Assembly: GCA_017521875.1 (NCBI GenBank)
Contig: JAFXBH010000317.1
Location: 1 to 14,932, forward strand
DNA length: 14,932 nucleotides
Direction of reading: 5' to 3'
From: Oscillospiraceae bacterium
GTDB taxonomy: Bacteria; Bacillota; Clostridia; Oscillospirales; Oscillospiraceae
Below the pieces are notes generated by a model, which did not search any database, was not told where the DNA came from, and saw nothing but the letters and a program-made list of their open reading frames with translations. The translations under genes were made by a program, and so were the position numbers. Below are positions 1-9,958 of the stretch, one piece after another. Position 1 is the first letter of the stretch; every line of letters begins with the position of its first letter.

Positions 1-169
1 ATAATTACGTAATGCGTTTCTGGAAGCAATCTCGCGCATATACGCAAAAGACCTTGCCTTTTCTTTTTTTGTTTCTTTCTGCAATGAGGTGCTCAAAATA
101 GGAATCTATATGGCCGGATATGGCGTCCACGGATTGTCAGTTTTTCAATACACAGCACCATCCACTGTG
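1..169. other. Left-edge stretch with no clear gene
   Basis: AT-rich DNA downstream of the 138-residue membrane protein. On the minus strand one frame is open from about 145 to a TAA at 5-7 and would give roughly 44 residues including the string SGHIDSYFEHLIAERNKK. This reads like a protein end, but I see no ribosome site and the frame opens just after a stop, so I do not call a gene. It could be the tail of a decayed neighbour. No terminator-like hairpin was seen. Confidence 0.4.
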
Positions 170-586
170 TTACCTGCTTATATCACTGTACGCAAAGCGT
201 TTTTGAAACCACCGATTGCAAGCGTGCGCTTGTATTACAACACTTAAATCAAGTATTGCATTGATTACGAATGCCATCAGCACAAAGTACAGATTCACTT
301 TGCCTAGTATAAAACCAATGCATGCATATATCAACAAAGCAAAAAAGAAAGCCGAACAGAGCACAATGTGAAGGCACGGACGCACCCGATACACAACATT
401 TATATCATTTTCTATACACCCACTAATTTTAAATGTAAAGAAGCCATAATGTGATATTCCCATCTTCTTATATAGCGCAAAACGATCCTTTTTTATAGCA
501 TTAGATTTCGTGGTTGTTCCCGTCATGTTTATCAACCAATCCCGTGAACAACAATCTTTTATTTTAAAACATCGCATTCGGCACAT
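170..586 (-). CDS. Small protein with two membrane segments, candidate immunity protein of tip cassette 3
   Basis: 138 residues, family not recognised. The N-terminal ~70 residues are polar and basic. Two hydrophobic segments follow at about 72-94 and 98-119, then a short charged tail, so it is probably an inner-membrane hairpin protein. The first ATG is supported by AAAGGA about 8 bases upstream; a later ATG at residue 21 is possible. It starts about 19 bases after the stop of the third Rhs tip on the same strand, the place where polymorphic-toxin loci carry the immunity gene. The immunity role is inferred from position only. Two-TM immunity proteins are known for membrane-active or secreted toxins, but the tip here is too short to suggest a target. 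Confidence 0.6.
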   Translation of the reverse strand: MCRMRCFKIKDCCSRDWLINMTGTTTKSNAIKKDRFALYKKMGISHYGFFTFKISGCIENDINVVYRVRPCLHIVLCSAFFFALLIYACIGFILGKVNLYFVLMAFVINAILDLSVVIQAHACNRWFQKRFAYSDISR

Positions 587-605
587 TGTTGTTATCCTTT
601 CTGTT

Positions 606-854
606 TCAAGTTAAAAAGTTTGCACTGTGTCCCCTGTCACTACCACCCCCACCAAATCCGCCAGCGCTTATTTCGTGCCGGGTTCCGGTTGAATCAGTAT
701 AAAGCACTGGATTGTTGCCACAATAGGCAAATATATTGTAGCCCAGGATGCCTTGGCCGGTGGAGACGAAGGAATCGGCATTGAGGAAACGGCCGATTTC
801 GGGGTTATAATAGCGAGACTGTAAGTAATACAGTTGAGTTTCTTTGTCTATTGA
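606..854 (-). pseudogene. Startless Rhs core fragment with short Gly-rich tip (cassette 3)
   Basis: An open frame of 82 codons runs from just after a TAA (855-857) to a TGA (606-608). Residues 1-57 are the end of the conserved Rhs repeat-associated core: QLYYLQSRYYNPEIGRF at about 7-23, then LNADS, GYNIFAYCGNNPV and TDSTG. After the core the tip is only about 25 residues, with GGFGGGGSDRGH, and no recognisable toxin domain. There is no ATG/GTG start with a ribosome site and no upstream Rhs body, so it cannot make a full Rhs protein. It is either a decayed remnant or a stored tip that would need recombination into a complete rhs gene elsewhere. The core is nearly identical to that of cassette 2. 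Confidence 0.75.
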
Positions 855-995
855 TTAGCCACAAGAGGAATTCCGCACTGTTTTGAGGGAGCAGTTGCGC
901 CACCCTCAAAAAGGGAATCTGCGAGGACGGATGGGCCGTCCCCGTTGGTTATAAGTTAGTCAGAATCGGTCTTTGGCTTAGGGGGCAGAAGAGCA
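721..995 (-). repeat. Direct repeat copy A (Rhs core end plus hairpin-bearing non-coding DNA)
   Basis: This stretch aligns without gaps to 1924-2198 at a constant offset of 1203 bases; I count about 25 mismatches over ~255 bases. It covers the Rhs core codons (to 854) and ~140 bases of non-coding DNA before them in the transcription direction. The non-coding half holds two inverted repeats: TTTTGAGGG/CCCTCAAAA (881-889 with 903-911) and GAGGACGG/CCGTCCCC (923-930 with 936-943). The repeat ends close to the stop codon of the 186-residue gene, so it marks the cassette boundary. Confidence 0.85.
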
Positions 996-1012
996 GTCCT
1001 CTTGTCCTTTTG

Positions 1013-1573
1013 CTACTTTTTATAGACCTGTTTTATCACTTTATGAGATATGACTTTCCATTTATCGTGCTCCTGAAAAATACGATAATATGGTTTCGTT
1101 CCAACCGTTCTGCCTAGTTGTTGCCTTTTTCGAGCCATTTGTTCATCAAAAGAAAACTCGCGGAAGTGTCTTCGAATATACCTGTTTTTAAAGTATTTTG
1201 TTTCCACTTTTTCTGCCAGAAAATCAATCAGTTCCGAAACATAATCCTGCATTATTACCGCTACAGCACCTAATACATTGCTATAGTAAGTATAGTTCAA
1301 TTCAGCCAATTCCTTTGATAGAAAACAAAGTGGTTTTCTCTTTAAACGATCTGGCACGTATTCCAAGATTGCAATCAATTCCTTAAACGTTGGTTCTGGA
1401 AAACGGACATATCCAGATTCCTGACCCCAACCATGATCTGCCAGCAAACGTTTTTTGTACAATTGACCTGATGCGATATGTTTATAAATATCTCCATGCA
1501 CCAATTCAAATTCCTTGTCATATTGAGGCAAAAAATGTATTGTTACATAAAAATTTTTTGCTTGGAGATTCAT
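1013..1573 (-). CDS. Uncharacterised 186-residue protein, candidate immunity protein of tip cassette 2
   Basis: Family not recognised. The protein is soluble-looking, with no signal peptide or membrane helix. It is rich in aromatic and charged residues, with a moderately hydrophobic stretch at about 100-124 and a basic C-terminus ending KQVYKK. The ATG is preceded by GAGAGG about 7 bases upstream. It starts about 10 bases after the stop of the Gly/Ala-rich Rhs tip on the same strand, and its end lies about 18 bases from direct repeat copy A, so tip plus gene form one unit between two repeats. That placement suggests an immunity protein. It could instead be a second effector or a cargo gene. 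Confidence is high that it is a real gene and low on its role. Confidence 0.65.
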   Translation of the reverse strand: MNLQAKNFYVTIHFLPQYDKEFELVHGDIYKHIASGQLYKKRLLADHGWGQESGYVRFPEPTFKELIAILEYVPDRLKRKPLCFLSKELAELNYTYYSNVLGAVAVIMQDYVSELIDFLAEKVETKYFKNRYIRRHFREFSFDEQMARKRQQLGRTVGTKPYYRIFQEHDKWKVISHKVIKQVYKK

Positions 1574-1583
1574 ATGCTACCTC

Positions 1584-2057
1584 TCAGAAAACTTCAATTA
1601 TTATTTCTACTATATGCCCAACTTTTCTTAGCAACACTGGCATCTCACAATTCCAGAATACACTTGTACTGGCATTGAATGTAGCATTAGAAATAAAAGC
1701 GTATGCACTTCCGGCTAGCATTACCCCTGCCGCTGCTCCAAAACCAACTCCAACTAGTCCTCCTACTGCAGCACCAATGCCGATTCCAGCCCAAACGTTA
1801 CCACCATTCTTAGCGGCAACGACACCGCCGACAACCGCTCCAACTACAGCGCCGATAGCCGCAGTCACAATAAAAAACGGTAATTGTCCTGTCGTGTCAG
1901 CCATACTTACCGGATTATTATTGCAGTAGGCAAACATATTGTAGCCTGTTATGCCTTGGCCGGTGGAGACGAAGGAATCGGCATTGAGGAAACGGCCGAT
2001 TTCGGGGTTATAGTAACGGGACTGTAAGTAATACAGTTGGGTTTCTTTGTCTATTGA
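1584..2057 (-). pseudogene. Startless Rhs core fragment with Gly/Ala-rich membrane-type tip (cassette 2)
   Basis: An open frame of 157 codons runs from after a TAA (2058-2060) to a TGA at 1584-1586. It begins with the same Rhs core as cassette 3 (LQSRYYNPEIGRFLNADS, GYNMFAYCNNNPVSMADTTG). From about residue 60 it changes to a tip rich in Gly, Ala and Val with repeated small-residue motifs (AAIGAVVGAVVGGVVAA; GIGIGAAVGGLVGVGFGAAA). Such glycine-zipper segments commonly follow the Rhs core as pre-toxin translocation regions. About 35 residues follow with no catalytic motif I know, so the toxin is either missing or the membrane segment is itself the effector. The ATG within the core at 1937 has no ribosome site. 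The 186-residue gene starts just downstream. Confidence 0.75.
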
Positions 2058-2198
2058 TTAGCCACAAGAGGAATTTTGCGCTATTTTGGGGGAGCAGTTG
2101 CGCCACTCTCAAAATGGGAATTTGCGGGGACGGGTGGGCCGTCCCCGTTGGTTATAAGTTAGTCAGAATCTACTTTCCGCTTAGGGGGCAAAAAGACT
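1924..2198 (-). repeat. Direct repeat copy B
   Basis: Second copy of the 275-base repeat, offset by exactly 1203 bases from copy A with no insertions or deletions seen. Its non-coding half carries TTTTGGGGG/CTCTCAAAA (2084-2092 with 2106-2114) and the perfect GGGGACGG/CCGTCCCC (2126-2133 with 2139-2146). The core-coding part is nearly identical between copies, and the differences cluster at both ends and in the hairpin part. Homologous recombination between the copies would delete or duplicate cassette 2. Confidence 0.85.
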
Positions 2199-2348
2199 GT
2201 CGCCTTGGCTCGTGTACCTGCAAGCATTGCCTTTTGGGGACAAAAGGCAGTTTGTTGGGATAATCCCAAGCCCTTAAAGGTTTCAGGAATATTCCTGACA
2301 AGTCTGTGTTTGGGTGACCAAACGCGATGCTTGCTGGTATGTCGGACT
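2061..2348. other. Palindrome-rich non-coding spacer between cassettes 1 and 2
   Basis: No credible gene lies here. It contains six inverted repeats in series: 2084-2114 and 2126-2146 (both within repeat copy B), TGCCTTTTG/CAAAAGGCA at 2228-2249, TTGGGA/TCCCAA at 2255-2269, the perfect palindrome TCAGGAATATTCCTGA at 2283-2298, and GTTTGG/CCAAAC at 2308-2323. None is followed by a clear T-run, so they are not typical intrinsic terminators. They may be folded RNA, a REP/MITE-like element, or the left-over of an excised element. Confidence 0.6.
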
Positions 2349-2774
2349 CTATTCGGATAACCAATCTATCAAATTTTTATATCCTTCTTCAAAACCCAGC
2401 ATGTTTTCTCCACTTATTGATATTGCGACTATAGGCATTACATATCCATCTCCAAAATACTTTGGTGCAGTGACAAAGGTTATTTGTTCGCCTATTTTAA
2501 GCTTATCATCAATTCTATTGGCTTTGACTATCTCTAAATTTTCTCCGACAATTTTAAAACATGTATCATCGAGAATTGGAGACAATTCAGAAAAGTCAAT
2601 ATACAACGCCGTGGCTTCTTCATTGTACTTTATGCTCGACACGGTTCCGGTCACACTTATATAGTTTTCTTTTTGCGAATAATATTCAATTGTCCCAGAC
2701 GAATTACAAGAACAAAGTAAAACGCATATAGACGTAATTAACATGATTGATTTTAGTGAAGAATTTCTTTTCAT
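2349..2774 (-). CDS. Small lipoprotein, candidate immunity protein for the metallopeptidase tip
   Basis: 141 residues. The N-terminus is a lipoprotein signal peptide: basic MKRNSSLK, a hydrophobic stretch at about 9-21, then the lipobox LCSC with the lipidated cysteine at residue 23. The mature part is about 118 residues, mostly predicted strands by composition, with no family I recognise. The ATG has a strong GGGGAGG about 7 bases upstream and lies about 11 bases after the stop of the Rhs metallopeptidase tip. A membrane-anchored, outward-facing protein directly behind a toxin tip fits an immunity protein acting outside the membrane. This role is inferred from position and localisation and not from homology. 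Confidence 0.7.
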   Translation of the reverse strand: MKRNSSLKSIMLITSICVLLCSCNSSGTIEYYSQKENYISVTGTVSSIKYNEEATALYIDFSELSPILDDTCFKIVGENLEIVKANRIDDKLKIGEQITFVTAPKYFGDGYVMPIVAISISGENMLGFEEGYKNLIDWLSE

Positions 2775-2785
2775 ATGTACCTCCC

Positions 2786-3532
2786 CTATTCAATGAACAC
2801 CCAAATAAGCGGACCTATTATTTTACTACCTTCCAAATATGCAAAGCCTCTATCAATATTGCTTTGAGAATGATTTCTTGATTGGACACCGCCATAAACA
2901 TCTGCAGTAATCTCCCAAGGCTTACTATAATATTCGTCAGTACCCCACTGTTGCCACGATGGTAATCCAATACACAAAGCATAGTTTACAATGCCTAGTT
3001 GCTCCAATTGTTTTGTATGACCATACTCGTGACGAATAACGTCCTCGGGATTACTTCTATTATTGGTCTCTCTTGTCAAAAAAATGGCTCCGAAGGATCC
3101 CGATCGGTCTCCGTTTGTTCTTATGACTGGTACACCTTTGTATGAAGAAAAATAATTTGATTCTAAAACTTTTTCTTCACTTTCATTGTTCGAGTCAAAA
3201 TTATTGATGTCTTCTGCAATATCTTTAACAAAACTTACACCTGGTTGAATGACCTTATCATTAACCCAATCCACTGCATCTTTAATCCACTGTGGCCAAT
3301 GTCCAGAATTATCTGTCATATTCACAGGATTATTAAAGCAGTAGGTAAACATGTTGTAACCCAATAAGTTTTCGCCAATTCCAGCTACAACACTATCTGC
3401 ATTGATCCACCGACCGATCTCAGGATTGTAATAACGGCTGTTGCAGTAGTATAGGTCCGTCTCGGTGTCGTAGACATAACCACGGTAGCGCAGACGGTTA
3501 CCCCATAAGTTTATGGCATGCCGACAGTGTGT
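2786..3532 (-). pseudogene. Startless Rhs C-terminal fragment with HEYGH metallopeptidase-like tip (cassette 1)
   Basis: An open frame of 248 codons follows a TAG at 3533-3535. Residues ~10-77 are the Rhs core end (NRLRYRGYVYDTETDLYY, NSRYYNPEIGRWINADS, GYNMFTYCFNNPVNMTDNSG). A variable tip of ~170 residues follows. It contains HEYGH at about 168-172 (3017-3031), the zinc-binding HExxH signature, and a downstream PWEITAD at about 205-211 that may give the third ligand. This HEYGHT-Q...IG-PS...PWE--AD layout resembles metallopeptidase (Tox-MPTase-like) tips of polymorphic toxins. The motif is intact and the tip has no internal stop. No start codon with a ribosome site exists: the first ATG/TTG lie inside the core. 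The N-terminal ~1000+ residues expected of an Rhs protein are absent; upstream is a promoter and then the glgP terminator. Confidence 0.8.
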
Positions 3533-3547
3533 CTACCGTTTATAGAC
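3531..3547. promoter_or_regulatory. Inverted repeat at the start point of the cassette-array promoter, possible operator
   Basis: GTCTACCGTTTATAGAC has 5-base arms GTCTA/TAGAC around a 7-base centre. It directly abuts the -10 box at 3548-3553, covering the predicted transcription start. A repressor bound here would block the promoter. No regulator gene is visible nearby. A second small inverted repeat, CCATAA/TTATGG, lies at 3503-3516 near the point where Rhs similarity begins. Confidence 0.4.
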
Positions 3548-3575
3548 ATTATATACTATACAAAATAAATGTCAA
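3548..3575 (-). promoter_or_regulatory. Near-consensus sigma-A promoter reading into the Rhs tip array
   Basis: On the minus strand TTGACA (3570-3575) and TATAAT (3548-3553) are both perfect, with a 16-base spacer. It lies after the glgP terminator and before the startless Rhs fragment. It would transcribe the first tip and the lipoprotein gene, and possibly the later cassettes if the hairpin-rich spacer does not stop transcription. Confidence 0.7.
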
Positions 3576-3626
3576 GAGGAGACAGAACCCATCCCCTTAT
3601 TTCAAAAAGTACCTTTGTTTTCCAAG

Positions 3627-3661
3627 AAAAAAGTCTGTTGCCGGGTGGCAACAGACTTTTT
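3627..3661 (-). terminator. Intrinsic terminator of the malQ-glgP operon
   Basis: A perfect 10-base stem GTCTGTTGCC/GGCAACAGAC with a 4-base loop is flanked by A6 on one side and T5 on the other, so it works in either direction. It begins three bases after the glgP stop codon. Confidence 0.9.
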
Positions 3662-3663
3662 GT

Positions 3664-5997
3664 TTAGAATTGGGTGGGTTCGATGTGCCAAATCTCTTCT
3701 GCGTACTGGCGAATGGTACGGTCGGAGGAGAACTTTGCGCCGCTGGCAATGTTCATCATACACTTGCGGCCAAAGGCCAGTTTATCACCGTAATCCTGGT
3801 TGGCACAGAGTTTGGCCTCCAGATAGGATTCATAATCCAGCAGCAGGAAGTAGTGATCCGCCTTATGCCAATGGGTGCCGTCCAACAATGCGTGGTACAG
3901 TTCTCTCTGGTCATCATCGGTGGGAACTGTGCCGTCCACCAAGGTGTCGATTGCCCGATGCAGACGGGGGTTGGTATCATAGATGCCGCGAGCATAGTAA
4001 CTGTCTCTTGCGGCGTTGATCTGTTCCACAGTTGCGCCGAAGATGTAGTTGTTTTCCATGCCGGCTTCCTTGACGATCTCCACATTGGCGCCGTCTAAAG
4101 TACCCAAAGTCACCGCGCCGTTCAGCATCAGTTTCATATTGCCGGTACCGGAGGCTTCCGTGCCGGCGGGAGAGATTTGCTCAGAGATATCAGCGGCAGG
4201 GATGATTTCTTCGGCATAGGAGCAGTTATAGTTCTGCACAAACACCACTTTCATCTTATCGTACATATCCGGGTCGTTATTGATCATGTGGGCGATCCGG
4301 TTAATATAGCGGATAATAGCCTTGGCCCGGGCATATCCGGGGGCAGATTTTGCGCCAAACAGGTACACTGTGGGCTGGAAGTCCTGCAAACTGCCGTCTT
4401 TCAGCCGGAAGTAGATATCCACAATGGACAGCGCATTCAGCAGTTGCCGCTTATACTCATGCAGCCGCTTGACCTGCACATCGAACAGGAAGTCCGGATT
4501 CAGTTTTACGCCCTCTCGCTTATAGATGGTCTCGCAGAGTTGCTCCTTCTTCTGCCGCTTCACGGTATTGAACTGGCGGACCAGGTCATCGTCGATCATT
4601 GGCTTCAGATTATTGAGTTTATCCAGGTCTTTCAGGAAGTCACCGCCGATGCGGTACTTGATCAGTTGGGTCAATTCCGGGTTACACAGGCCCATCCAGC
4701 GACGGGGCGTCACACCGTTGGTCTTGTTCTGGAAACGCTCCGGGAAAGCCTGATACCACTGGTGGAACACATCGTCCTTCAAAATCTGGGAATGGATCTC
4801 CGCCACGCCGTTGACATAGGTGCCGACATACACAGACAGGTTTGCCATATGGGCGGTGTTATCCCGGACAATGAACAGTTCCGGGTGTTCCCGCTTCAGT
4901 TTCTCGTCGATGCGGAGAATGATGTCCACAATCTCCGGCACAACGCTCCGCAGCAGGTCCAAGTTCCATTTCTCCAGCGCCTCGCCCATAACGGTGTGGT
5001 TGGTGTAGGAGAAGGTCTTCTGCGCCACGGCGAAACTCTGCTCAAAGTCCAGACCCTCTGCCATCAGCAGACGGATCAGTTCAGGAATAGACATGGCCGG
5101 GTGGGTATCGTTCAGTTGCACGCAGTAGAAGTCGGCAAAGTGGCTCATATCGGTGCCGTGGGTAGTCTTATACACCCGCAGCATATCCTGCAAAGATGCG
5201 CTTGACAGCACATACTGCTGCTTAATACGCAGACGCTTACCCTCCCAGGTAGAGTCGTTGGGATACAGCACACGGGTGATATCCTCAGCCTTGTTCTTCT
5301 GGGTCAAAGCGCGGAGGTAGTCCTGATCGTTAAAGGCGTTGAAATCCAGTTCTTCCTCGGCTTCGCACTGCCACAGACGGAGCGTACCTATATTCTGGGT
5401 GCCGTAGCCGATCACCGGCACATCGTAAGGCACTGCCAGCACGGTGTGGTCAGGAAACTGCACCTTGACCGTATGGTTATACCGGCGGTAGGACCAGGGG
5501 TCGCCGAATTTCGCCCAATCGTCGGCATTCTCTTTTTGGCTGCCGTTGGCGTCGAAACTCTGCTTGAACAGTCCGAACCGATACCGCAGGCCGTAACCGG
5601 ACAGAGGAATGTCGGTGCTGGCTGCAGAATCCAGGAAGCAGGCTGCCAGTCTGCCCAGACCGCCGTTACCCAGCGCAGCATCCTCCACCTCTTCCAAAAT
5701 GGCCAAGTCCACGCCCCGCTGGGCAAACAGTTGCTTCATTTCATCCAGGATACCCAAGTTGTAAAGGTTGGAATACACCAGTCTGCCAATCAGGTATTCG
5801 GCAGAAATATAGTATGCCTTCCGGGCAGGCATACGGGTATGCTTGGCGTGATTCCAGTTGTCGGAAATGGCCATCATTACCGCTTCGCCCAATGCCTCGT
5901 GGAGTTCCTGGGCGTTGGCTTCCCGCAGGGATACATCATAGGTGTACTTCAGTTTGGCTTCTGTCCACCTTAAAATATTCATGCAATTATAACTCAT
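3664..5997 (-). CDS. glgP: Glycogen/starch/alpha-glucan phosphorylase (GT35)
   Basis: 777 residues. It removes terminal glucose from alpha-1,4-glucan chains with phosphate to give glucose-1-phosphate, in the cytoplasm. The GT35 fold is recognisable throughout: GNGGLGRLAACFLDS at about 110-124, the LRIKQQY and SASLQD region, NDTHPA, TNHTVMGEALEKW, NKTNGVTPRRW, QVKRLHEYKRQLLN, and the pyridoxal-phosphate site EASGTGNMKLMLNG with the cofactor lysine at about residue 622. Length is normal for bacterial enzymes. The start at 5997 is chosen because GGAG lies about 8 bases upstream. The frame stays open to 6111, but that would overlap malQ and add an unconserved leader. The gap from the malQ stop is about 26 bases, so the two are co-transcribed. 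MalQ lengthens and debranches short maltodextrins that GlgP then phosphorolyses. A terminator follows at once. Confidence 0.96.
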   Translation of the reverse strand: MSYNCMNILRWTEAKLKYTYDVSLREANAQELHEALGEAVMMAISDNWNHAKHTRMPARKAYYISAEYLIGRLVYSNLYNLGILDEMKQLFAQRGVDLAILEEVEDAALGNGGLGRLAACFLDSAASTDIPLSGYGLRYRFGLFKQSFDANGSQKENADDWAKFGDPWSYRRYNHTVKVQFPDHTVLAVPYDVPVIGYGTQNIGTLRLWQCEAEEELDFNAFNDQDYLRALTQKNKAEDITRVLYPNDSTWEGKRLRIKQQYVLSSASLQDMLRVYKTTHGTDMSHFADFYCVQLNDTHPAMSIPELIRLLMAEGLDFEQSFAVAQKTFSYTNHTVMGEALEKWNLDLLRSVVPEIVDIILRIDEKLKREHPELFIVRDNTAHMANLSVYVGTYVNGVAEIHSQILKDDVFHQWYQAFPERFQNKTNGVTPRRWMGLCNPELTQLIKYRIGGDFLKDLDKLNNLKPMIDDDLVRQFNTVKRQKKEQLCETIYKREGVKLNPDFLFDVQVKRLHEYKRQLLNALSIVDIYFRLKDGSLQDFQPTVYLFGAKSAPGYARAKAIIRYINRIAHMINNDPDMYDKMKVVFVQNYNCSYAEEIIPAADISEQISPAGTEASGTGNMKLMLNGAVTLGTLDGANVEIVKEAGMENNYIFGATVEQINAARDSYYARGIYDTNPRLHRAIDTLVDGTVPTDDDQRELYHALLDGTHWHKADHYFLLLDYESYLEAKLCANQDYGDKLAFGRKCMMNIASGAKFSSDRTIRQYAEEIWHIEPTQF

Positions 5998-6023: not shown

Positions 6024-7496
6024 TCATTGCTGCAGCCGCCCATAAATCCGGGTCAGGCTGTATATTTTCTTTGCCAAAGCGTCGCTTGCAAAGTCGGGTG
6101 CGGCACGCCAAGTCCAGTTATGACCGGTTTGGGTGCCGGGGAAATTCATTCTTGCTTCCCCGCCCAATTCCAGATAGTCCTGCATCTGAACCATTGCCAG
6201 ATCTGCAATGCTGCTCAGGCACATCCGGATCACTCCCCATTGGGGGTCTGCCGGTTGGCCCATATAGTTTTTGACAAAGTTGATGGTTTGTTCGCTGCTC
6301 TCGGCAAACCACTGCTTAACCGGCATATTGTCGTGGGTGCCGATGTAGCAAACGGTATTTTTTTCGTGATTGTGGGGCAGATACAGGTTGCTTGCATCCC
6401 CATCAAAGGCAAATTCCAGCACCTTCATACCGGGATAGCCTGCATCCTGCCGCAATCTATGTACATCCTCCGTCAAGTATCCCAAATCCTCTGCGATCAT
6501 AGGAGTGTTGGGCAGACAGGTCTGTACGGCGCGGATGAAATCCATTCCCGGACCGGGCAGCCACTTGCCACCCTTGGCATTCTCTGCGCCGTAGGGAATG
6601 GCATAGTAACCGGCAAAGCCGCGAAAATGGTCAATGCGGATCACATCGTAGCGATTTGCCGCAGCCTGCAACCGCTGCAGCCACCAGCCGTAGCCGTCGG
6701 CCTTATGGGTTTCCCATCGGTAGAGGGGATTTCCCCATAACTGGCCATCTTCACTGAAGGCGTCCGGCGGACAGCCAGCCACTGCAGTGGGGGTGAGGGT
6801 TTCATCCAGGCAGAACATCTGCGGATTGCTCCACACATCCACCGAATCGTAGGGTACATAAATAGGCACATCGCCGATGATAGACACGCCTTTTTTGTGG
6901 GCGTATTCCCGGAGGTTTTCCCACTGGGTACTGAACAGATACTGGACAAAGCAGTGGAACTGCACTTCCTCTTTCCATTCCTTCCGTACCTGCCAGATGG
7001 CTTCCGGTTCGCGGAATCTGACGCCCTCCGGCCAGGCATACCAGGGTTTCCCGCCATAGGCCTCTTTCAGCGCCATATACAGCGCGTAATCCGAGAGCCA
7101 ATAGGCATTTTCCCGGTAGAATTTCTCCAAATCATCATTGCGGGCAAACCGGGCATAGGCTTTCCGCAGCACCGACAGTTTATGGGTATACAGCAGGCCA
7201 AAATCCACCCTGCTCTCGTCATCGCCCCAATTGCAGGCGGTGATCTCATCTTCTTCCAGCAGACCCTCCTCCACCAGCAAATCCAAATCAATCAGATAAT
7301 GGTTGCCGGCAAAGGTAGAACAGGACTGGTAGGGAGAATCCCCATAGCCGGTGGGAGTAAGCGGCAAAACCTGCCAATACGTTTGCCCGGCCTTTTCCAG
7401 AAAGTCCACAAATTTATAAGACTCCTTGCCCAGTGTGCCTACACCGTAGGGACCGGGTAAGGAGGTAATGTGCATTAAGATGCCGCTTGCGCGCAT
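6024..7496 (-). CDS. malQ: 4-alpha-glucanotransferase (amylomaltase, GH77)
   Basis: 490 residues. It transfers alpha-1,4-glucan segments between maltodextrins, releasing glucose and making longer chains for GlgP. The family N-terminus RASGILMHITSLPGPYGVGTLG is intact. Catalytic residues are visible: Asp in VIRIDHFRGF (about 289, nucleophile), Glu in MIAEDLG (about 336, acid/base) and Asp in IGTHDN (about 389, transition-state stabiliser). Length is typical of GH77. The start at 7496 has GAGAGGG about 7 bases upstream; an ATG five codons earlier (7511) and the longer frame to 7574 are less likely because conserved sequence begins at MRASG. First gene of the malQ-glgP pair, preceded by a possible promoter and a structured leader. 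Confidence 0.95.
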   Translation of the reverse strand: MRASGILMHITSLPGPYGVGTLGKESYKFVDFLEKAGQTYWQVLPLTPTGYGDSPYQSCSTFAGNHYLIDLDLLVEEGLLEEDEITACNWGDDESRVDFGLLYTHKLSVLRKAYARFARNDDLEKFYRENAYWLSDYALYMALKEAYGGKPWYAWPEGVRFREPEAIWQVRKEWKEEVQFHCFVQYLFSTQWENLREYAHKKGVSIIGDVPIYVPYDSVDVWSNPQMFCLDETLTPTAVAGCPPDAFSEDGQLWGNPLYRWETHKADGYGWWLQRLQAAANRYDVIRIDHFRGFAGYYAIPYGAENAKGGKWLPGPGMDFIRAVQTCLPNTPMIAEDLGYLTEDVHRLRQDAGYPGMKVLEFAFDGDASNLYLPHNHEKNTVCYIGTHDNMPVKQWFAESSEQTINFVKNYMGQPADPQWGVIRMCLSSIADLAMVQMQDYLELGGEARMNFPGTQTGHNWTWRAAPDFASDALAKKIYSLTRIYGRLQQ

Positions 7497-7840: not shown

Positions 7841-7879
7841 GTGTGCAAATATACCTTTTATCTTTGGAGAGAGAGAATT

Positions 7880-9958
7880 ATGCTGGAACTTTTAGCACCG
7901 GCAGGGTCTATGGAGGCTTTGCAGGCCGCCGTGCAAAACGGCGCAAATGCAGTATATTTGGGCTGCGGGCAGTTTAATGCCCGGCAGAGCGCCAAGAATT
8001 TTACCCCTCAGGCGCTGGTAGAAGCCGTAAAATACTGCCATATCCGCGGTGTAGCCGTTCATCTGACCGTGAACACATTGGTGTCCGATCGGGAATGTGA
8101 CGAAGCCGTGGCGCTGATCCGTCACGCTGCCAATGCCGGGGTGGACGCCTTTATCGTGCAGGACTTAAGTGTTGCTGAATTGTGCAAGCAGATTGCGCCC
8201 CACATTCCCCGCCACGGTTCTACCCAAATGACCGTCCATTCTCTGCCCGGCGTACAGTTCTGCGCCGGTATGGGTATGTCCCGGGTGGTTCTGAGCCGGG
8301 AACTGAATCGGGATGAAATTCGCTACATCTGCGCCAACTCTCCTATCGAAATTGAAGTATTCGGCCACGGCGCGCTGTGTATGGGCTACTCCGGTCAGTG
8401 CTATCTGTCTGCGGCCATTGGCGGCCGTTCCGGTAACCGGGGACGCTGCGCCCAGCCTTGCCGGCAGAGTTACGGCTACAACCGTTGGGAGAACAAGTAC
8501 CCCCTGAGTCTGAAAGACAACTGCACCGTTGAATTTGTGAAGGAACTGGAAGATATGGGCGTTGCCTCCCTGAAACTGGAAGGCCGTATGAAGCGGCCGG
8601 AGTATGTGGCTGCGGTGACCGGTGTGTACCGGCAGGCCATCGATTCCGGCAGAGTGACAAAGCCTATGATGGACCAGTTATCTACCGCATTTAACCGGCA
8701 GGGATTTACCAATTACTACGCCGGCAGGACCGGCAGCCATATGTTTGGCATTCGGGAGGACGCATCCGGCAACGAATCCTGGTACAGACAGATGCGTCAA
8801 ACCTATGAGGCTACGGAGAATCCCCTGGTACCGGTGGCTTTTGAAATGATCGTTCACACCGGCCAGTCTATACTGACCGTTACGGATGCAGACGGCCGCA
8901 CCTGTTCCCTGCAGGGACCGGCGCCGGAACCTGCCAGAAGTTTGGATCTGACCCACGATGCTTTGGCCTCCCGGCTCAGCAAAACCGGCGGTACGCCCTA
9001 CATCTGCGCACGGGTTCGTTCGGATATTGCGCCGGGACTGACCCTGTCTGCCGCAGTGATCAACGGCATGCGCCGGGATGTACTGAATCTGCTGACTGCC
9101 CAGCGGGCCCGTCGGGAAAACCCGACGCTCCGTCGGCCTGACAAGGTGGCGCATTATAAGGGCGTTTCTGAATCCCCCGCCCTGACAGTTCAGGTGACTA
9201 CCAAGGAGCAACTGACCCAGAAACTGCTGGATATCCATCCGGAAGTGCTGTATGTGCCCCTGCACATTTTGGCAGAAGACGACGGGCTTTGCCGAAAACT
9301 GGCCAGCAAAACCAATGTCTGCGCCGTTGCGCCCCGGATCGTCCACGATGGAGAACTGGCAAAATTCCAGTCTGATTTGCTGGCAGTAAAAAGCGCCGGC
9401 ATCCGGGAAGTGCTGATCGGCAACCTGGGTCTGTTGCTGCCGGTACGGGAGTGCGGTATGCATCCCCGGGGAGACTTTGGTCTGAATTTATACAATTCCC
9501 GCAGTGTCAACTGCGCCCGTTATCTGCAACTGCGGTCTGCCTGTCTCAGTTTTGAGATGACTCTGCCGCAGATCCGGGATGTAAGCAAGGGCGTTCCCTG
9601 TGAACTGCTGGTTTACGGACGGCTGCCTTTGATGATTACAGAAAACTGTCTGATCCGGGGCAAGACCGGTCAGTGCAGTTGTCATATCGCTGCCGCCCGG
9701 CTGACAGACAAGACCGGTGCGGAATTCCCCATTATCAAAGACGGAAATACCTGCCGCAGCGTTTTGCTGAACGGCAAAAAACTCTACTGGCTGGACCGGC
9801 AGGACGATCTGCGGCGGCTGGGTCTGTGGGCAACACGCCTGCTATTTACCACAGAAAGTGCCAAAGAAACAGACCGGATTCTGTCGGCCTACCGGGATCG
9901 CTTGCCCTTTGATCCCGGCGGCTGCACCAGAGGTCTGTATCTGCGCGGTGTAGAATAA
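7880..9958 (+). CDS. Long-form peptidase U32 family protein, RlhA-like (probable RNA hydroxylation)
   Basis: 692 residues. The N-terminus LELLAPAGSMEALQAAVQNGANAVYLG is the U32 barrel start. The family signature EVFGHGALCMGYSGQCYLS is at about 159-177, followed by GNRGRCAQPCRQ; Cys167, Cys174, Cys190 and Cys194 are candidates for the iron-sulfur ligands known in this family. A middle region (~300-400) corresponds to the DUF3656-type insert and the last part (ELLVYGRLPLMITENC...) to the extra C-terminal barrel half. This long architecture is that of RlhA (23S rRNA 5-hydroxycytidine synthesis) and not the short tRNA-acting TrhP. Old annotations say 'collagenase/protease', which is doubtful. The start at 7880 uses GGAGAGAG upstream; a longer frame to 7829 would overlap the promoter. 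maf follows after ~24 bases. Confidence 0.9.
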   Translation: MLELLAPAGSMEALQAAVQNGANAVYLGCGQFNARQSAKNFTPQALVEAVKYCHIRGVAVHLTVNTLVSDRECDEAVALIRHAANAGVDAFIVQDLSVAELCKQIAPHIPRHGSTQMTVHSLPGVQFCAGMGMSRVVLSRELNRDEIRYICANSPIEIEVFGHGALCMGYSGQCYLSAAIGGRSGNRGRCAQPCRQSYGYNRWENKYPLSLKDNCTVEFVKELEDMGVASLKLEGRMKRPEYVAAVTGVYRQAIDSGRVTKPMMDQLSTAFNRQGFTNYYAGRTGSHMFGIREDASGNESWYRQMRQTYEATENPLVPVAFEMIVHTGQSILTVTDADGRTCSLQGPAPEPARSLDLTHDALASRLSKTGGTPYICARVRSDIAPGLTLSAAVINGMRRDVLNLLTAQRARRENPTLRRPDKVAHYKGVSESPALTVQVTTKEQLTQKLLDIHPEVLYVPLHILAEDDGLCRKLASKTNVCAVAPRIVHDGELAKFQSDLLAVKSAGIREVLIGNLGLLLPVRECGMHPRGDFGLNLYNSRSVNCARYLQLRSACLSFEMTLPQIRDVSKGVPCELLVYGRLPLMITENCLIRGKTGQCSCHIAAARLTDKTGAEFPIIKDGNTCRSVLLNGKKLYWLDRQDDLRRLGLWATRLLFTTESAKETDRILSAYRDRLPFDPGGCTRGLYLRGVE

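Follow-up and report, generated by a model that had tools for sequence, protein, structure and literature searches.

A tandem array of Rhs cassette remnants and candidate immunity genes between glgP and asd in an Oscillospiraceae genome

The origin of immunity-gene arrays from toxin-immunity cassettes has, in the literature available to us, been inferred mainly from Gram-negative loci of the type VI secretion system (T6SS). An array that bears on this origin lies at one end of a contig from an Oscillospiraceae bacterium (GenBank assembly GCA_017521875.1, here G000; contig JAFXBH010000317.1, here C78). The window is this entire contig, 14,932 nucleotides long. Beside glgP it carries three minus-strand units, each consisting of the end of an Rhs core, the residues that follow it (the tip) and a small downstream gene. 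Two further units, placed on a second contig (C103), appear to continue the array as far as asd.

Two described kinds of locus resemble this one. The first, dissociated rhs tips, consists of partial cores arranged in tandem, with low GC content and tips unrelated to one another; most lack start sites and some are degenerate (Jackson et al. 2009, PMC2935791). Units 1-3 have just such partial cores and variable tips without a proper start, and they share the tandem order and the low GC with the tips described there. In that account a full rhs gene whose core is near-identical precedes the dissociated tips, whereas the glgP-asd locus has none: glgP lies directly upstream, and no Rhs body is found over ~5.5 kb if the overlap between the two contigs is a true join. 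Unlike the dissociated tips as described, the array also has its own promoter and a repeat at cassette ends.

The second kind is the heterogeneous polyimmunity locus, described as never interrupted by toxin cassettes and, in several instances, as having a recombinase nearby (Zhang et al. 2012, PMC3482391). Our array has the same tandem order of unrelated candidate immunity genes on one strand, placed for co-transcription. It differs from the loci described there in that Rhs sequence still stands between the genes: cores and tip remnants in units 1-3 and a body piece in unit 5. No recombinase was recognised by eye among the listed open reading frames (ORFs) of the window and C103, with no family scan made of every ORF.

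The array sits between these two kinds as they are described, and a displacement route from one to the other is already in print for the T6SS arrays of Vibrio cholerae, in which orphan immunity genes arise by effector displacement (Kirchberger et al. 2017, PMC5361080). There, too, effector parts were lost and immunity genes retained in tandem after successive displacement. The V. cholerae arrays nevertheless belong to a different delivery system and phylum and stand behind T6SS clusters that have an effector-immunity module in working order; specific integration sites are not reported in the parts of that paper available to us. Other relatives are more distant in kind. The immunity-gene strings of Staphylococcus aureus EsaG and streptococcal TipC are, like our array, found in Firmicutes and are described as shaped by homologous recombination, but they consist of paralogues from a single family (Garrett et al. 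2022, PMC9484751), whereas the five genes here are mutually dissimilar. The orphan Rhs toxin-antitoxin (TA) modules of Salmonella also join an orphan tip to an immunity gene without a delivery part; in the published description the toxin is active and adjoins the main rhs gene (PMC7043789), whereas most tips between glgP and asd are short or gone. The orphan Rhs immunity proteins described in Serratia belong to a Gram-negative T6SS (PMC10539506), unlike our array. A limited search of titles and abstracts found no report of such an array in this bacterial group.

We favor the view that the array consists of displaced Rhs toxin-immunity cassettes that are becoming a heterogeneous immunity-gene locus between glgP and asd, and we judge this to be rather probable. 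The observations behind it are the anatomy of the cassettes, the short or missing toxin parts of units 2-5, the open downstream genes, the absence of the array from a sister genome and the consensus promoter at its head.

The units and the site they occupy

Read along the minus strand, the window runs from glgP through a terminator-like inverted repeat just after it (3620..3669, located by repeat search), beyond which the array starts, and on to units 1-3 (3532-170). The original prediction had placed three tandem minus-strand units here. Their ORFs and their matches to the profile TIGR03696 (Rhs_assc_core; 70.1, 61.8 and 62.8 bits against a cut-off of 32.5) bear this out.

What differs from unit to unit is the tip. 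Unit 1 (2786..3532, minus strand) has 170 residues after the core, including the sequence HEYGH (codons ~3017-3031, counted by hand), a zinc-peptidase motif. HEYGH is present in all 29 aligned tip sequences, our own included, selected from 120 listed. A Pfam scan of this tip gave no peptidase family above cut-off, and PDB matches of its alignment were mostly to Rhs and Tc-type proteins and covered core columns. Unit 2 (1584..2057, minus) ends in a 99-residue glycine-zipper tip that could be a membrane toxin or merely an entry part. In unit 3 (606..854, minus) the core is followed by only 24 residues of Gly-rich linker, with no toxin domain left. The prediction that each tip would be unlike the others holds for units 1 and 2, and unit 3 has only its linker. 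Nor were all the cores correctly described as lacking a start codon. The unit 3 Rhs frame has no ATG, but internal start codons occur in unit 1 (TTG 3364, ATG 3352) and unit 2 (ATG 1937), none with a clear ribosome site.

Could the toxin tips themselves be in use? They might be translated from the internal starts or swapped onto an rhs gene, the downstream genes serving as antidotes for the cell's own tips. Orphan Rhs tips are described as type II TA modules in Salmonella (PMC7043789). Unit 1 retains a full tip with HEYGH, start codons are at hand in units 1 and 2, and a 299-base homology within the array (see below) could serve swapping. Yet no clear ribosome site precedes the internal starts, no toxin that could be used is recognised in units 3-5, and the sole other Rhs body found in the genome has a different core (51% identity). 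We regard a toxin reservoir or TA function as improbable.

The array does not end with the window, as had been proposed in confining it to 170..3575. The minus-strand end of C78 (window positions 1..15, found by comparing contig ends) and the start of C103 have 15 exact bases in common, which places two more units beside the contig end. C103 carries, in order, the unit 4 gene, a repeat, unit 5, a repeat, and then asd and lysC in opposite orientation. Unit 4 is a lipoprotein gene of ~296 codons at the contig start with no recognised Rhs sequence; unit 5 is an Rhs body piece followed by a gene for a 106-residue hydrophobic protein. Neither has a core. Assemblers usually need an overlap of more than 15 bases for joining contigs, and we infer that this one fits two ends parted only by thin coverage. 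If the join holds, the array would comprise five units and no Rhs body in 3617 + 1879 - 15 = 5481 bases.

The site is empty in a sister genome, G114, because glgP and asd adjoin there. A single G114 contig matches C78 up to window position 3618 and C103 from position 1880, with 5 bases between the two matches. It has a comparable inverted repeat after glgP (by eye), and no Rhs core was matched in this genome. The case that had been named as refuting the original prediction, an Rhs body joined to the fragments in relatives, was thus not seen in the one relative found to have both flanks. Of the 122 other genus genomes with glgP, we compared the glgP loci of the 29 best matches, over at most 1500 bases downstream (fewer than 700 in six genomes); asd followed glgP in one of them, G114.

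These data bear on whether the array is an artefact of assembly or binning, either a chimeric contig or the result of collapsed repeats that removed an rhs body. The source assembly is a draft (1.66 Mb in 319 contigs, 82% complete, 5.4% contamination), the array is cut by the end of the window, and in 15 of 20 stretches examined from the genus an Rhs core is no more than 3 kb away from a contig end (hand count). But one contiguous relative matches both the glgP side and the asd side, unit 1 recurs from core through lipoprotein gene at 92% identity in another locus (L106), and comparable cassettes recur in the genus. An artefact is very unlikely in our estimation. The GC content of the array (0.405 and 0.393) is lower than that of the sequence beside it (0.535 and 0.529), which suggests a foreign origin. 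The window gave nothing at Rfam gathering cut-offs, and the array (window 1-3600) matched no phage or plasmid record at an expectation value (E) of 1e-5.

The absence of a working rhs gene, also part of the original prediction, stands for the glgP-asd locus, where it hinges on the 15-base overlap, but not for the genome. Contig C3 (3375 bases) encodes 652 residues of an Rhs protein, cut at its 5' side by the contig start, with a T5orf172 domain above cut-off and GIY-YIG just below. Its core is 51% identical to that of unit 1, in contrast to the near-identical parent cores described for dissociated tips (PMC2935791). With the assembly incomplete, a parent rhs gene may lie elsewhere in the genome. 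On C3 (L016, 2-3375) the T5orf172-type tip is followed by a 358-codon downstream gene starting MGIWGTGIYS and then by the start of another Rhs body piece; in L071, a tip is followed by a gene whose start, MAIWGPKLYE, is similar. A fifth Rhs match in the genome (C142, 16 bits, below cut-off) proved by eye to be a murE-like gene.

Rhs cores occur in 28 of 136 genus genomes, G000 included, and we compared 20 stretches from 18 of the other core-bearing genomes. Long rhs frames with orphan cassettes behind them are present in G066 (2052 residues) and G070 (2020 residues). Among the 34 cores in these stretches, 29 are followed by 130-218 residues and five by fewer (a hand count that includes full-length genes and takes a stop-split core once). 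Three of these five short-tip cassettes keep a downstream gene of at least 70 codons with a ribosome-site-like sequence. One tip type stands beside the same gene type in both G066 and G073, and this supports the idea that tip and gene move together. In G070 (L066) a terminator-like stretch of 74 bases stands upstream both of the long rhs gene and of an orphan body piece; the arrangement looks like a copy of the whole locus that has lost its front part.

Downstream genes and a traveling lipoprotein

All five downstream genes are open, and each has a ribosome-site sequence. In the window the distance from the rhs stop to the next start is 11, 10 and 19 bases for units 1, 2 and 3, with purine-rich sequence ahead of each gene, in agreement with the 10-20 bases and good ribosome site first proposed. 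The unit 1 gene (2349..2774, minus) encodes a 141-residue lipoprotein with a predicted OB-like (oligonucleotide/oligosaccharide-binding) fold. The unit 2 product (1013..1573, minus) has 186 residues and no signal or membrane stretch by eye; both are candidate immunity proteins. The ORF of unit 3 (170..586, minus) encodes 138 residues with two hydrophobic stretches (by eye). None of the five genes has a Pfam match above cut-off, none of the window's three an NCBIfam match, and no pair among the five is similar below E 0.1 (best E 0.14). The 186-residue protein has 25 relatives of 178-193 residues (54-87% identity); its model (predicted local distance difference test score, pLDDT, 87.5) has no PDB match at E < 1.

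A homologue search with the unit 1 lipoprotein returned 416 proteins, its own included. In 12 other lipoprotein loci we judged the state of the unit 1-type tip. The tip is intact in one locus (L106), interrupted by a stop in another (L109), and cut down to its final 46-47 residues in two (L105 and L110); in seven none was found by tblastn at E 0.05 over 723-5000 bases upstream, and one (L114), at a contig edge, could not be judged. Being near-identical, L112 and L113 are treated as a single event. In L107 and L108, the DNA matches point to a surviving tip end a few tens of bases long. In L105, L109 and L110 the tip is broken at nearly the same position, around residue 124-128 of 170.

One of these loci, L105, is in RGIG995, a Clostridia genome from cattle gut. 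A 651-base piece containing the tip end and the lipoprotein gene is 98.5% identical there and has different neighbors. From this copy and from the tip states in the other loci we conclude that the unit 1 lipoprotein gene travels, often without an intact toxin. The surrounding stretch of L105 (4741-7596) holds the tip remnant, the near-identical lipoprotein gene, two further small genes with hydrophobic stretches and then an Rhs body piece, and is possibly a second such array.

The lipoprotein family is under constraint. The ratio of nonsynonymous to synonymous substitution rates (dN/dS) is 0.09-0.26 in the 10 of 55 pairs with dS < 1 and 0.10-0.40 or saturated in the others; L114 (partial) and L117 are excluded from this set. 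Between the window and L106, dN/dS is 0.42 for the tip and 0.16 for the lipoprotein, counts too small for use. A Foldseek search with the lipoprotein model (pLDDT 84) returned OB-fold proteins, SSB among them, and the top rows have probabilities mostly of 0.97-1.0, E no better than 0.006 and template modeling (TM) scores of ~0.4. OB-fold inhibitors of metallopeptidases exist (TIMP). It is a reasonable guess from the model that the unit 1 lipoprotein is a lipid-anchored inhibitor of a secreted peptidase.

Is the array simply decaying? It could be the relic of a displaced-tip array that lost its parent rhs gene by deletion and is under no selection, with its genes open merely because they are recent. 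The tips are short or missing in units 2-5, the array is known from a single draft genome alone, the end of unit 1 is nearly identical to a copy elsewhere, so that some parts are recent, and two short-tip cassettes elsewhere have no downstream gene. Decay explains less well why all five downstream genes are open with ribosome-site sequences, why the lipoprotein family is constrained and repeatedly found without an intact tip, and why a consensus promoter heads the array. We consider plain decay unlikely, though it deserves serious attention. That displaced cassettes are kept for their downstream genes, as originally predicted, is the best-supported reading, given the short or missing tips of units 2-5, the open state of all five genes and the constraint on the lipoprotein family; the bank of immunity genes that the prediction envisaged goes a step beyond these observations.

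Promoter and repeats

A promoter scan found the consensus TTGACA-16-TATAAT, matching at 12 of 12 positions, on the minus strand at 3548..3575, facing the array. The strong promoter of the original prediction is present as sequence. It is the sole exact consensus in the window, and an exact consensus occurred in 12 of 3000 first-order random regions of 3.7 kb. Directly after the -10 box a pattern search located a 19-bp palindrome, TGTCTATAAACGGTAGACA (3530..3548, minus), a possible operator that overlaps the likely transcription start of the array; no other match to its pattern was found in the genome. The promoter could be both strong and repressed. A looser promoter-palindrome pattern matches 41 viral contigs, from which we draw no inference. 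No terminator was scored at the cassette ends, a weak negative because the same scan overlooked the inverted repeat and T-run after glgP. An array arranged in this way would yield immunity proteins with little toxin.

The least explained part of the array is the repeat at the ends of its cassettes, an element absent from the original prediction. It is ~70-100 bases long, contains a hairpin (GGGGACGG-loop-CCGTCCCC) and lies after unit 1 (2125..2193, minus) and unit 2 (922..1004, minus). The other copies found in the genome are two, both on C103. All four real copies found lie at cassette 3' ends, the last with no Rhs sequence behind it, and the final codons of the unit 4 gene sit within one of them. 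No copy was found between units 3 and 4, and none at E 0.01 in 135 other genus genomes; an exact core pattern was not found in the genome and viral contig collections searched. A fifth match in its own genome (E 2.6) was a 14-base chance match. Folding z-scores of the four copies are -1.3, -1.7, -3.1 and -0.1: the hairpin is clear, and overall folding is not uniformly unusual. We do not favor an intrinsic terminator in this genome, since no T-run directly follows the hairpin and the scan, weak as it is, scored none.

A repeat of similar plan but different sequence occurs in G008 (68% complete), where all three copies found lie at cassette ends. These are inverted repeats centered on GGACGG (L058, ~6069-6141, 7867-7939 and 9782-9856, minus) that mark all three cassette ends of the locus; no further copy was found within G008 at E 0.1. 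We do not claim homology of the G000 and G008 repeats: the alignment of the four and three copies is weak, with 16 invariant columns of 136. G070 gave only a weak 22-base match (E 0.03). In G129 a run of ~50-base tandem repeats lies near orphan cassettes (L070, ~3934-4327 of the reversed locus).

The repeat is also part of a longer homology. A 299-base direct repeat, made up of the repeat element, filler and the start of the Rhs core, is found by repeat search in unit 2 (1909..2207, minus) and unit 3 (706..1004, minus). The copies are 87% identical, far beyond chance, which fits duplication followed by tip exchange. Each duplication may simply have carried the cassette-end repeat along as a passive flank, or the repeat may act as a second homology arm in cassette swapping. 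A bolder idea is that repeat and Rhs core form a two-armed exchange unit by which cassettes move and stack without a parent rhs gene, an Rhs counterpart of the ends of integron cassettes. The placement of every real copy found at a cassette end, in G000 as in G008, speaks for this idea; we think it doubtful.

From toxin cassettes to immunity genes

Several points weigh against the view that displaced cassettes are becoming an immunity-gene locus. The immunity role of the five genes is assigned by position, and they are candidates. They are also rare: among 399 other sampled genomes of the family, the unit 1 lipoprotein occurs in one and the unit 4 gene in none, and the unit 2 gene is absent save for two 38-residue partial matches. 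Only the family of unit 1 could be traced into other loci; for the unit 3 and unit 5 genes the homology search covered Pfam (and NCBIfam for unit 3) and the retrieved loci. The dN/dS values mirror the lipoprotein family as a whole, and partly the time before tip loss, and distant members of the family (36-48% identity) may have different partners, or no partner at all. Nor are genes always kept, as our scan found no downstream gene in two of the five short-tip cassettes of the genus. The repeat may have altered the end of the unit 4 gene, and, judging from the palindrome, the promoter may normally be shut.

With these points in mind, we propose the following course for the cassettes. They would have piled up as recombination in the Rhs core, and perhaps also in the shared cassette-end repeat, displaced them one after another. 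The consensus promoter would make one long mRNA across the array, on which ribosomes would start at each downstream gene's own site, mostly skipping the start-less toxin remnants. The lipid-anchored, soluble and membrane proteins so made would neutralize Rhs toxins from gut neighbors, the unit 1 lipoprotein blocking a secreted zinc-peptidase tip outside the membrane.

The locus offers five unrelated candidate immunity genes, one of them paired with a zinc-peptidase tip, and a cassette-end repeat whose role in cassette stacking is open to testing. Rhs scars still part the genes, most of the toxin parts are shortened or lost, and the site has no parent gene. The array looks like an intermediate step, in a lineage of gut Clostridia, on the way from toxin-immunity cassettes to an immunity-gene array.

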